A DNA stretch of 64,000 nt from a virus. Where the stretch lies: IMG/VR virus record IMGVR_UViG_3300037808_001516, positions 1 to 64,000 of that record; one strand, given 5' to 3'. The notes below the pieces were generated by a model that was not told where the DNA came from, made no database searches, and saw only the letters and a list, made by a program, of their open reading frames with translations. The position numbers and the translations under genes are program-made. Positions 721 through 13,294 of this stretch are shown in pieces; within the stretch, counting starts at the first letter, position 1, and each line of letters starts with the position of its first letter.

Positions 721-1028
721 GGGGGCGTACAGGTTTCGACAGGGTAAGGAAAATAATGTGTGCAAGGATGTGTGGGTAGGCACAGTAAAAATACCCAAAA
801 AAATAAACGCAAACGATGACGTTGAAAACTTCGAGGATTATGCGCTCGCCGCATAACCCTTGAGGAGGTCCCCAAATACCTCTTTAATCCAACATTTGGA
901 CTTGTTACTTTATATTATTATATATTTGCTACTTAATGGCTGTCTAGGGCCAGAACTAGACTAACCTTGTGAACGACACACTATTCGAGATGCTTTGGAC
1001 GGGGGTTCGACTCCCCCCGCCTCTACCA
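721..1028 (+). ncRNA. ssrA: tmRNA (SsrA) with divergent tag ANDDVENFEDYALAA
   Basis: Transfer-messenger RNA that rescues stalled ribosomes and tags the nascent protein for proteolysis. The acceptor stem pairs 721-727 (GGGGGCG) with 1018-1024, includes a G3-U70 wobble (723/1022, the alanyl-tRNA synthetase identity element) and ends in encoded ACCA (1025-1028). The T arm is GGGGG-TTCGACT-CCCCC at 1001-1017. The tag frame runs from GCA at 809 to TAA at 854 and reads ANDDVENFEDYALAA. It keeps the start AND and the YALAA end recognised by ClpXP, with a longer acidic middle than the E. coli tag ANDENYALAA. The 5' end touches the upstream stop codon. Pseudoknots were not folded. Length 308 nt is normal for a one-piece tmRNA. 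Confidence 0.93.
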
Positions 1029-8909: not shown

Positions 8910-8936
8910 TTGACATATGAAATATAATCCTATAAT
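8910..8936 (+). promoter_or_regulatory. sigma70-type promoter for tilS
   Basis: TTGACA (8910-8915) is a perfect -35 box. TATAAT (8931-8936) is a perfect -10 box after a short 15-base spacer; TAATAT at 8933-8938 would give 17 bases. The expected start of transcription lies about 8943, at or next to the ATG at 8945, and there is no Shine-Dalgarno, so the tilS message may be leaderless. This would be a host-polymerase (early) promoter. Confidence 0.55.
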
Positions 8937-8944
8937 ATATTACT

Positions 8945-9547
8945 ATGATAAGAATAATAGGTAAAATCCCTCATAACCTAACCGTAGCTTGTTCTGGTGG
9001 TATAGACTCAATGGTTGTAGTACATTTTCTTCTTCAAGGTAAAAAGAAAGTTAACTTAGCTTATTTCAATCATGACACTCAACATTCTCACAAAGCTCAA
9101 GAATTTGTAGAAAACTATGCAAGTGATAACAATCTAAATCTAGTTATAGGTAGTGTCAAAGGCCGCAAGGGGAAAAGATCCTTGGAAGAGTTTTGGAGAG
9201 ACGAACGTTATGATTTCCTGCAGCGCGTTAGCAGCAACTATATTATTACTTGTCATCATCTCGACGATTGCGTAGAGACTTGGCTGATGTCATCTTTTCA
9301 TGGTCAATCGAAGTTGATACCTTATCACAGAGGTGGTAATGTTTACCGGCCGTTTCTTATGACTACTAAAAAATCAATAAAAGAATATGCAGAAAGAAAA
9401 AAAGTTTCTTGGATCCAAGACCCCTCAAACCAAAAGACGAACTTTATGAGAAATCATGTTAGGCACAACGTGATGCCTCAAGTTTTGGTAGTCAATCCGG
9501 GATTAAGAACCACAATACGTAAAAAATTGATTGAAACTTACTTGTAA
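8945..9547 (+). CDS. tilS: minimal tRNA(Ile)-lysidine synthase
   Basis: Converts C34 of tRNA-Ile2 (anticodon CAU) to lysidine, so that it reads AUA as isoleucine, using ATP and lysine. Motifs seen: the PP-loop SGGIDS (17-22), HHLDDCVETWLMS (104-116), then RPFLMTTKKSIKEYA and WIQDPSNQKTNF with MRNHVR (156-173), all diagnostic of the TilS catalytic domain. At 200 residues it keeps only that N-terminal domain; E. coli TilS is about 430 residues with additional C-terminal domains. It lies 24 bases upstream of a tRNA with a CAU anticodon carrying tRNA-Ile2-type acceptor pairs, the obvious substrate. Its own start, MIRIIGKI, uses AUA for three of four isoleucines. The start has no ribosome site, see the promoter entry. 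Confidence 0.9.
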   Translation: MIRIIGKIPHNLTVACSGGIDSMVVVHFLLQGKKKVNLAYFNHDTQHSHKAQEFVENYASDNNLNLVIGSVKGRKGKRSLEEFWRDERYDFLQRVSSNYIITCHHLDDCVETWLMSSFHGQSKLIPYHRGGNVYRPFLMTTKKSIKEYAERKKVSWIQDPSNQKTNFMRNHVRHNVMPQVLVVNPGLRTTIRKKLIETYL

Positions 9548-9554
9548 AATCTGT

Positions 9555-9562
9555 TATAAATA
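9555..9562 (+). promoter_or_regulatory. TATAAATA element before the tRNA gene
   Basis: TATAAATA lies ten bases before the first base of the tRNA, the distance expected for a -10 element of a transcript starting just ahead of the tRNA. It matches the T4 late promoter core. Read-through from tilS could also make the tRNA. Confidence 0.35.
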
Positions 9563-9571
9563 TATGTATAA

Positions 9572-9648
9572 GGGCCTATAGCTCAATCGGTTAGAGCATC
9601 TGTCTCATAAACAGAAGGTTTCTGGTTCAAGTCCAGGTGGGCCCACCA
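9572..9648 (+). tRNA. tRNA-CAU, probably tRNA-Ile2 (lysidine substrate)
   Basis: A 77-nt cloverleaf with encoded CCA (9646-9648). The acceptor GGGCCTA (9572-9578) pairs with TGGGCCC (9638-9644). The anticodon arm is TCTGT-CTCATAA-ACAGA (9599-9615) with anticodon CAT at 9606-9608, the variable loop is AGGTT, and the T arm is TCTGG-TTCAAGT-CCAGG. It is not an initiator: base 1 pairs with 72 and the anticodon stem lacks three G-C pairs. C4-G69 and C5-G68 are present, the acceptor pairs reported to mark tRNA-Ile2 for E. coli TilS as against elongator tRNA-Met. With tilS directly upstream, AUA decoding is the best reading; elongator methionine is the alternative. Confidence 0.88.
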
Positions 9649-9668: not shown

Positions 9669-9848
9669 ATGATTGTAGAAAAGTTGAAGAACATTTTAGA
9701 GGAATTAGCGCATGCCGAAGAAGATGCAACAAAGAGTGAAGAAGGAAATGCGTCCGCTGGTAGGAGAGTAAGAAAAGCTTCCATGTCAGCCATTAGGGAA
9801 CTGAAGGAACTTAGGAACTTAGTATTGCAGCAGATAAAGGGAGAATAA
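9669..9848 (+). CDS. histone H1-like (Hc1-type) small protein
   Basis: A 59-residue ORF behind actaaggagaaa, overlapping the next start by one base (TAATG). The helical protein contains EEGNASAGRRVRKASMSAIR followed by ELKELRN. This closely resembles the GNKAAGTRVRKxMxxLKxL core of the bacterial Hc1 histone-like family (from memory). The family binds DNA or is of unclear function in small forms. The N-terminal half is acidic, and the protein lacks the long Lys/Ala/Pro tail of chlamydial Hc1. It lies between the tRNA and the ClpP-like gene. Nucleoid or virion DNA binding is inference. Confidence 0.65.
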   Translation: MIVEKLKNILEELAHAEEDATKSEEGNASAGRRVRKASMSAIRELKELRNLVLQQIKGE

Positions 9849-10486
9849 TGAGGGACTATTTTTGGGGTGAAAAGAAAGATGACCAACCGCAGGATCCGAT
9901 GTCTGTACATGAGTTTGCGTCGGAAACAAAAGGACACGCTTCAACAGACAATAATGTTGTAGACACTCTTCATAACAGAATATATTTTTATTCTGGCGTC
10001 ACGAGACCAAAAATACTTACTTTAAATAAGAGTATATTTAGTTTAAACGTTAATATGCTTTCGAAAACCGGACCATTACAGTATGAGCCACCTCCAATTA
10101 TCTTGCATATAAACAGCTATGGCGGCTCTGTGTTCGCTGGGCTCGCTGCCGTTGACTACATTAGGAATTCAAAGATACCAGTACACACAGTTATTGATGG
10201 ATGCGCAGCCTCCGCTGCAACGTTAATGTCTTGTGTGGGATCCCATCGCATGATGCACAAAAACTCGTGTATGTTAGTGCATCAATTGTCTGGTGTGATG
10301 TGGGGTAAATTCCAAGAAATGCAAGATGATATGGAAAATTCTGAAATGTTAATGGAGAAAATCAAGAACATCTACAGAGAGCACACAAAAATACCAAAAA
10401 AAGAGATGGATAATATCCTAAAGCATGATATTTGGTGGGAAGCTGAAAAATGCCTGCAGTATGGATTGATAGACGAGATTATATAG
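9848..10486 (+). CDS. ClpP-like serine protease (S14 family)
   Basis: A 212-residue protein with the ClpP/crotonase-like fold. PPIILHINSYGGSVFAGLAA (81-100) is the oxyanion/strand region. The catalytic triad is visible as S122 (DGCAASAATLM), H145 (MLVHQ) and D194 (LKHDIWWEAEK), followed by the family end YGLIDEI. About 60 residues at the N-terminus differ from housekeeping ClpP, which could alter docking to ClpX/ClpA or make it ATPase-independent. In phages this fold serves either as a ClpP replacement or as a prohead maturation protease, and both fit here. The tmRNA tag of this phage ends in YALAA, a ClpX signal. It shares TAATG with the upstream small gene. Confidence 0.82.
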   Translation: MRDYFWGEKKDDQPQDPMSVHEFASETKGHASTDNNVVDTLHNRIYFYSGVTRPKILTLNKSIFSLNVNMLSKTGPLQYEPPPIILHINSYGGSVFAGLAAVDYIRNSKIPVHTVIDGCAASAATLMSCVGSHRMMHKNSCMLVHQLSGVMWGKFQEMQDDMENSEMLMEKIKNIYREHTKIPKKEMDNILKHDIWWEAEKCLQYGLIDEII

Positions 10487-11977: not shown

Positions 11978-13294
11978 TTGGCTAAAAAAACTTACGTACT
12001 AGATACAAGTGTTTATTTGACAGATTCTAACTGCATAAATTCATTTGGAAACAACGACATCGTCATACCTCTCAAGGTTCTAGAGGAAATCGACAAACAT
12101 AAAAAAAGACAAGATTCGGTTGGCTCACAGGCTAGATCGACAATACGATCACTCGATGCACTTAGAGATAAGGGCAGTCTATCTAAAGGGGTCCGTATTG
12201 AAAAGGGACTAGGAATCATAAGAGTTTCTTCCTATAATCCATTGTGCCTACCAGACGATTTGGATCTGGAAGATCCAGACAACCAAATAATAGCTACAGC
12301 GCTTTCAGAGCAAGAGATTGCCCCTAAATCAAGAAAGCTGGTGGTTGTATCACGTGATATTAATATGAGAGTCAAGTGTGATGCGTTGGGTCTACTTACT
12401 GAGGACTATAATGCTGAACAAGTCGTACATAATGCTGAGGGATTGTATACTGGTAGAGCAGAGATACTTGTGGATGAACAAGAAATCGATAGGTTTTATG
12501 CAGGTGATGAAATATGGATGGATCCTGAAGAACACATCTTAAGCCCTAATCAGTTTATAATGCTGATATCTAACTCAAATGATAAAAAGACAGCTTTAGC
12601 AAAATTTGAGAATTATAACAAGCCGCTTCAAAAGATTGTAAAGAGCAATAAAAAGATTTGGAGTACTGAACCTAGAAACAAGGAGCAACAATTTGCATTT
12701 GAGCTTTTGCTGGATCCCAACATACCAGTCGTTTCTTTAGTTGGAAAAGCCGGCTCCGGCAAAACATTACTAGCACTAGCCTCAGGATTGGAACAAACGT
12801 TTGGAAAGGGAGCCTTGTATAAGAAGATCGTAGTGACAAAGCCAGTGGAACCGGTGGGTAAGGACATTGGTTTTCTTCCGGGCTCAATGGAAGAGAAGAT
12901 GTTGCCCTGGCTGGCCCCAATACAGGATAACCTTCAGTTTCTTATGGGGGATGACAAGGCAACACTAGAACTTTATATGGAAAAAGGTCAGATAGAAGTA
13001 GAAGCGATGACATTTATCCGCGGTCGATCAATATCAAACGCATTTATTGTAATAGATGAAGTTCAGAACATGACACAGCATGAAATTAAGACCGTACTGA
13101 CAAGGGTAGGAGAAGGTACCAAGATCGTCCTTACAGGCGACATTGAACAGATAGATAACGTCTACATAGATGCAACTAACAACGGCCTCTCGTACGTTGT
13201 AGAACGTCTCAAAGACGAACAGATAACAGGACACGTAACACTATTGAAGGGAGAGAGGTCAAAGGTGGCCACGATAGCAGCAACAAAACTATGA
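11978..13294 (+). CDS. phoH: PIN-PhoH (PhoH2-type RNA helicase/nuclease-like protein)
   Basis: A 438-residue two-domain protein. Residues 5-150 are a PIN ribonuclease domain (YVLDTSVYLTD with D9; LEEIDKHKK; DPDNQIIATA; VVSRDINMR with D126). Residues 235-438 are the PhoH P-loop ATPase with Walker A GKAGSGKT (256-263), GFLPGSMEEKMLPW and Walker B FIVIDEVQNM. The fusion is the PhoH2 class, reported to act as a sequence-selective RNA unwinding and cutting enzyme in mycobacteria. PhoH genes are common in phages of phosphate-poor waters. I use TTG 11978 as start, eight bases after aaaagg, giving MAKKTYVLDT. The stop overlaps the next ATG (ATGA). Confidence 0.88.
   Translation: MAKKTYVLDTSVYLTDSNCINSFGNNDIVIPLKVLEEIDKHKKRQDSVGSQARSTIRSLDALRDKGSLSKGVRIEKGLGIIRVSSYNPLCLPDDLDLEDPDNQIIATALSEQEIAPKSRKLVVVSRDINMRVKCDALGLLTEDYNAEQVVHNAEGLYTGRAEILVDEQEIDRFYAGDEIWMDPEEHILSPNQFIMLISNSNDKKTALAKFENYNKPLQKIVKSNKKIWSTEPRNKEQQFAFELLLDPNIPVVSLVGKAGSGKTLLALASGLEQTFGKGALYKKIVVTKPVEPVGKDIGFLPGSMEEKMLPWLAPIQDNLQFLMGDDKATLELYMEKGQIEVEAMTFIRGRSISNAFIVIDEVQNMTQHEIKTVLTRVGEGTKIVLTGDIEQIDNVYIDATNNGLSYVVERLKDEQITGHVTLLKGERSKVATIAATKL

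Follow-up and report, generated by a model that had tools for sequence, protein, structure and literature searches.

A single-domain TilS paired with a tRNA-Ile2 gene in a marine T4-superfamily phage: a conserved and probably functional AUA-decoding cassette

TilS settles a problem of tRNA identity, in which two tRNAs bear the same CAU anticodon, one of them serving methionine and the other isoleucine. Bacterial enzymes are sorted by their C-terminal domains into type I, with both CTD1 and CTD2, and type II, without CTD2; in the larger enzymes CTD2 touches the tRNA acceptor stem, and C4-G69 and C5-G68 are identity pairs of E. coli TilS (PMC12514573). The principle of AUA decoding and both of its parts are already known in viruses. 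A TilS was reported from phage MIJ3 in 2019, with a role in host viability proposed by the authors and none in AUA decoding (PMC6892783), and Ralstonia phage RsoM2USA has an annotated TilS of 349 aa (PMC8504454). Chloroviruses have both TilS and a tRNA-Ile(AUA) and use AUA 12-13 times as much as their host (PMC7589089). Among T4-like phages, those that bear tRNAs have a CAU tRNA with isoleucine signatures (PMC1524935), and in a vibriophage (Vibrio phage nt-1) one tRNA-CAU carries lysidine (reviewed in PMC13191261), while prophages of Latilactobacillus curvatus carry tRNA-Ile2 in a host that has tilS (PMC10688831). The open-access literature yielded no fixed tilS/tRNA pair in a phage, no single-domain TilS clade and no leaderless tilS promoter. 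Here we describe a locus that, judging by its sequence, very probably represents a phage-borne AUA-decoding cassette, composed of a single-domain TilS and its own tRNA-Ile2.

The window, i.e. the whole stretch of DNA under analysis, comprises the opening 64 kb of the record of a marine phage, 143,905 bp in length (G000). Across the whole record, genes for a gp23-type capsid, a terminase, a portal, gp32, UvsX and a tail sheath place the phage among the T4-superfamily myoviruses. The terminase did not serve to name a host, as the nearest isolate, Flavobacterium phage immuto, is too distant at 46.5%. Positions 8945-9648 of the plus strand hold a tilS ORF, a 24-nt spacer and a tRNA-CAU, just as an initial sequence-only reading had it when it placed a TilS catalytic domain 24 bases 5' of such a tRNA:

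8910-8938, plus strand: predicted sigma70-like promoter, TTGACA-17-TAATAT, 6 nt from the tilS ATG
8945-9547, plus strand: tilS, coding for a single-domain tRNA-Ile lysidine synthetase of 200 aa (PF01171, TIGR02432, AlphaFold)
9548-9571, plus strand: 24-nt spacer between the tilS stop codon and the tRNA, from the sequence, without a terminator-like site
9572-9648, plus strand: tRNA-Ile2 gene, anticodon CAU, CCA encoded, lysidine predicted at C34 (ARAGORN, Rfam, panel of bacterial CAU tRNAs)

The surroundings hold further genes of interest. A one-piece tmRNA lies at 721-1028 (plus strand; tag ANDDVENFEDYALAA; Rfam 118.8 bits), and tmRNAs with related tags are found near tilS in L002, L003 and L014. 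Just 3' of the tRNA, 9669-9848 (plus strand) encodes a 59-aa histone H1-like protein (Hc1, PF07432) and 9848-10486 (plus strand) a ClpP-like protease; homologues of both genes lie 3' of the tRNA in contig G011, and in G003 a homologue of the H1-like gene does. A PhoH-like protein with an N-terminal PIN domain is encoded at 11978-13294 (plus strand), and elsewhere in record G000 we find a Cpn60/GroEL chaperonin (131510-133078) and a UvdE-type UV endonuclease (138539-139501).

With the NCBIfam model TIGR02432 (lysidine_TilS_N), whose cut-off is 93.6 bits, the 200-aa ORF scores 137.6 bits over model positions 2-189 of 189, and its closest solved relative by sequence is Aquifex aeolicus TilS (1wy5, E 1e-24). 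No TilS family appeared among its PHROGs matches. The AlphaFold model (pLDDT 95.7) has Aquifex TilS 2e21 as its top fold match (TM 0.84 of the query), and an alignment of 54 TilS rows, 44 from the viral clade (one of them from a metagenome-assembled genome (MAG) contig) and 10 bacterial, retains 17 invariant columns, including the P-loop SGGxDS, H104, D108, E111, R169 and R173. PF01171 (132 bits) is the sole TilS domain that Pfam detects in the protein, and neither PF09179, PF22132 nor any other TilS substrate-binding or C-terminal Pfam domain was found, as the sequence-only reading had anticipated in describing a TilS without C-terminal domains. The same search recovered substrate-binding domains in the Aquifex (PF22132 at 223-287) and Caryophanon controls, and both PF09179 and PF11734 in the control L053. 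With PF01171 as its sole TilS domain it does not show the CTD1 and CTD2 of type I, and with neither PF09179 nor PF22132 to stand for the CTD1 of type II, the phage enzyme is by its domain content neither of the two types of PMC12514573.

This economy of domains is shared by a large set of relatives. All 86 TilS loci of this kind (85 viral contigs and the MAG contig L047) encode proteins of 189-240 aa, with a median of 198. The bacterial relatives found, 79 in number, are longer, with a median length of 429 aa; the shortest of them, at 255 aa, comes from a small contig. In the tree, the viral rows, among them those of MIJ3, of a Halobacteriovorax-MAG contig and of two phages 634-642 kb in size, all fall on the same side of a 100/100 branch, 1.67 in length, that parts them from the sampled bacterial TilS, these being drawn from the bacterial rows nearest to the phage protein, a choice that leaves room for other single-domain forms in bacteria. 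Their shortness in all 86 loci and their union in one clade indicate that the phage TilS is not a truncated copy; by the same comparison it is an unusually small form of the enzyme that, among the rows sampled, is met only in viruses. Since the tree separates viruses completely from the sampled bacteria, no bacterial donor could be named. The Halobacteriovorax-MAG contig itself (L047, PBIO01000016.1) has its viral-clade TilS (46%) flanked by a tRNA-Lys on one side and a CAU tRNA on the other; it is probably a phage contig and possibly a lead to a host.

The tRNA downstream of tilS was found both by ARAGORN (9572-9648) and by Rfam (9572-9645, 71.8 bits). Its acceptor stem, GGGCCUA/UGGGCCC, contains the C4-G69 and C5-G68 pairs, positions 1 and 72 form a G-C pair and the anticodon stem is not the GGG/CCC type seen in initiators, so that the description of the tRNA as bearing both pairs and not being initiator-like holds. 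For classification we assembled a panel of bacterial CAU tRNAs from two pattern searches and the annotated E. coli genes, in which the non-initiators divide into a Met type, with acceptors such as GGCUACG and GGCGAGG, and an Ile2 type, most members of which have the C4-G69 and C5-G68 pairs. The phage tRNA is on average most like the Ile2 members (mean identity 0.764), ahead of the Met (0.638) and initiator (0.606) members, and a nearest-neighbour class call is correct for 35 of the 36 panel tRNAs on leave-one-out, although we had labelled the panel by acceptor stem and E. coli annotation, which makes the test partly dependent on those positions. The tRNA thus classifies as Ile2 and not as elongator Met, a class that the sequence-only reading had named as counting against its own proposal. 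The phage acceptor stem is the same as that of Ile2-type tRNAs from one Sumerlaeota and one Chitinophagales genome.

A tRNA of elongator or initiator Met type, lying next to tilS by coincidence, is the label that ARAGORN would favour, as it calls every CAU anticodon here tRNA-Met; we regard this reading as extremely improbable, for every near-clade tRNA shows higher identity to Ile2 than to Met or initiator members of the panel, the acceptor stem of the phage tRNA is of Ile2 type, its top hits among E. coli genomes carry a tRNA-Ile annotation, and the linkage to tilS repeats across the clade. C4-G69 is present in 20/20 parsed near-clade tRNAs and C5-G68 in 19/20 (U5-G68 in one), while positions 3, 6 and 7 vary; in several sister-clade tRNAs and one MIJ3 tRNA the 4-69 pair is A-U and C5-G68 is retained. 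By these comparisons the phage tRNA-CAU is of the Ile2 class rather than an elongator or initiator tRNA-Met. The further idea that the acceptor pairs are positive marks for TilS stands in part: they mark the Ile2 class, but the acceptor contacts are assigned to CTD2, which is missing here, and the pairs alone are therefore no proof that the phage TilS recognises the tRNA. More generally, the absence of the recognition domains of studied TilS enzymes leaves the specificity for Ile2 over tRNA-Met unexplained.

ARAGORN over the rest of the record and Rfam over the whole 143,905 bp (1 tRNA) returned no second tRNA. The retention of a single tRNA in this genome and several relatives, together with the accepted idea that phage tRNAs replace lost host RNA (PMC13191261), would suit a role in counter-defence, with a host that cuts or depletes its tRNA-Ile2 on infection and a phage that resupplies a modified, cleavage-resistant copy. 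We give this very little credence, no anticodon nuclease or repair gene being among the genes noted next to the pair, and it is in any case compatible with AUA decoding rather than a true alternative to it.

An initial IMG/VR scan yielded 17 relatives of the phage TilS, and a profile scan was followed up for the best 80 of at least 528 more or less distant relatives. A CAU tRNA lies 13-25 nt downstream of tilS, on the same strand, in all 26 near-clade loci analysed, several of which are near-duplicates (e.g. L141-L145) and stand for fewer independent lineages; one further near-clade contig retains both genes around a 184-aa ORF (L297:894-1448). In a sister clade the order is reversed, with the tRNA 15-90 nt before the tilS ATG in L151, L154, L158, L163, L165, L176 and L183, and in L167 and L201 a CAU tRNA follows tilS at 11 and 43 nt, respectively. 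That the same pair occurs in two arrangements, with the tRNA 3' or 5' of the enzyme gene, argues that the two genes are functionally linked. In many distant relatives no CAU tRNA lies within 4 kb of tilS, a few of them having one elsewhere on the contig, so the linkage is not universal; ARAGORN with introns allowed gave no CAU tRNA, and an intron-split tRNA beside the unlinked tilS genes was set aside. In the clade of the window, tilS and tRNA-Ile2 are a conserved module, beyond chance. Two of the sister-clade CAU tRNAs just 5' of tilS (L154:3899-3984 and L151:3825-3910) have a variable arm of ~15 nt and a class II-like body, that of L154 passing the Rfam tRNA cut-off with 49.5 bits and that of L151 falling below it.

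The phage TilS might instead act chiefly on host tRNA, by raising the lysidinylation of host tRNA-Ile2 or, if its specificity is relaxed, by turning part of the host tRNA-Met pool into readers of AUA, with the linked tRNA as one of several targets: it is devoid of the domains that discriminate via the acceptor stem in other TilS enzymes (PMC12514573), the anticodon loop CUCAUAA is common to the phage tRNA and E. coli elongator tRNA-Met, distant phages such as MIJ3 have tilS apart from their tRNA genes, and chlorovirus TilS is described as acting on tRNA-Met (PMC7589089). We nonetheless consider this unlikely, as in the clade of the window the enzyme is never without a tRNA partner and a loss of Met decoding would hurt the phage as well.

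Upstream of tilS, an exact TTGACA-15-TATAAT at 8910-8936 overlaps the TTGACA-17-TAATAT listed above. In 9/19 clade loci tilS is preceded, each time 6 nt from the ATG, by a predicted promoter that agrees with the consensus at 10 or more of its 12 positions, and 0/136 of the remaining ORF starts of the record match that well. Exact TTGACA/TATAAT pairs whose halves lie 15-19 nt apart are found four times in the record, all on the coding strand and one of them at tilS, against an expectation of ~0.1 per strand. The arrangement predicts a leaderless tilS mRNA made by the host polymerase, whose transcription would probably be early. T4-type late promoters (TATAAATA) were considered as well and rejected: two lie near the pair (8898 and 9555), with no excess on the strand (5 found vs 4.2 expected).

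The sequence-only reading had pointed to many AUA codons, including three of the first four isoleucines of tilS, and the record bears this out: AUA makes up 24.5 per 1000 codons and 38.8% of isoleucine codons, with 8 of 13 isoleucines in tilS encoded by AUA and the isoleucines of its MIRIIGKI start by AUA, AUA, AUA and AUC. For E. coli, which nothing points to as the host, the figure is 4.9 per 1000 (PMC12514573). The composition of four-fold sites predicts an AUA share of 41.6% of isoleucines; the observed share is close to this expectation, and overall AUA is neither clearly favoured nor avoided in the phage, so that its high frequency alone is no proof of selection. Use is also uneven, AUA differing more from gene to gene than any other codon. 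In the replication genes AUA falls to 8% of isoleucines vs 41% elsewhere (Fisher 1e-25, the largest shift among all codons), it accounts for 3/32 isoleucine codons in gp23, and it is nearly missing from the gp32, UvsX, DnaE-like, RNR, helicase and gp23 genes (G000 110278-125560 and 82700-84481); even in this phage the codon is thus not freely used. We considered the dip as a sign of timing, with early genes translated before TilS is made, and rejected it: gp23 and contigs where TilS was not found show the same trend, which is explained by ordinary translational selection and is not creditable to the cassette. In three related contigs with neither TilS nor CAU tRNA found (G012, G013 and G014), AUA makes up 34-43% of isoleucines; as a TilS-negative codon control they proved uninformative, with most of the tilS-flanking block missing, possibly at assembly ends.

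We regard the cassette as real and conserved, and as probably functional on the strength of its sequence features. In the mechanism we propose, a dedicated promoter would transcribe tilS and probably also the tRNA behind it, co-transcription being probable because no terminator was found in the 24-nt gap. With ATP and lysine, TilS would then convert C34 of the phage tRNA-Ile2 (CAU) to lysidine, and the modified tRNA would be charged with isoleucine by the host IleRS and read AUA. The sequence-only reading had gone further and called the pair independent of the host; the cassette would still need the host for IleRS, tRNA processing and t6A. The outcome would be a greater capacity for AUA decoding during infection, in a phage that encodes 39% of its isoleucines by AUA. 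Of this, the sequences themselves establish the two genes and the class of each, their conserved linkage, the loss of domains and the use of AUA; the enzymatic reaction, its Ile2 specificity without C-terminal domains, the early transcription and the gain for the phage are inferred. A broader model, which we put forward tentatively and rate as somewhat improbable, would see single-domain TilS without CTD1 and CTD2 as a large viral class that finds its target by the anticodon arm and loop alone, is matched to a co-transmitted tRNA-Ile2, is expressed early and leaderless in this clade, and could be self-sufficient in any bacterium, even where no usable TilS exists.

In studied TilS enzymes much of the discrimination sits in the C-terminal domains, and single-domain enzymes that each lie, in this clade, beside their likely substrate would make the specificity of the catalytic domain directly testable. 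The takeover of translation by phages would be extended to a tRNA together with the enzyme conferring its identity, and a compact, portable AUA-decoding part would result.

Several known systems come close to this locus. The Pseudomonas jumbo phages MIJ3 and PA5oct (LR588166.1, MK797984.1), the nearest isolates with a TilS, encode a TilS of the same viral single-domain clade (~203 aa as annotated, 46% identical), but unlike here their tilS is not beside a tRNA, the 12 tRNAs, three of them CAU, lying elsewhere in the genome. The chloroviruses resemble the present phage as AUA-rich viruses with both TilS and an AUA tRNA, and AUA makes up 2.44% of codons in PBCV-1 and 2.45% here; they are algal viruses with tRNA clusters, and adjacency of tilS and tRNA is not described in the available excerpts (PMC7589089). 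The bacterial TilS of types I and II (Aquifex 1wy5, E. coli 1ni5) have the same catalytic domain and conserved residues, together with one or two C-terminal tRNA-binding domains, whereas the phage TilS has none. The T4-like phages with tRNA-Ile2 have a CAU tRNA with isoleucine signatures, as here, and we know of no phage TilS among them; their tRNA-CAU is presumably modified by the host enzyme, whereas in the present locus the phage supplies the enzyme as well.
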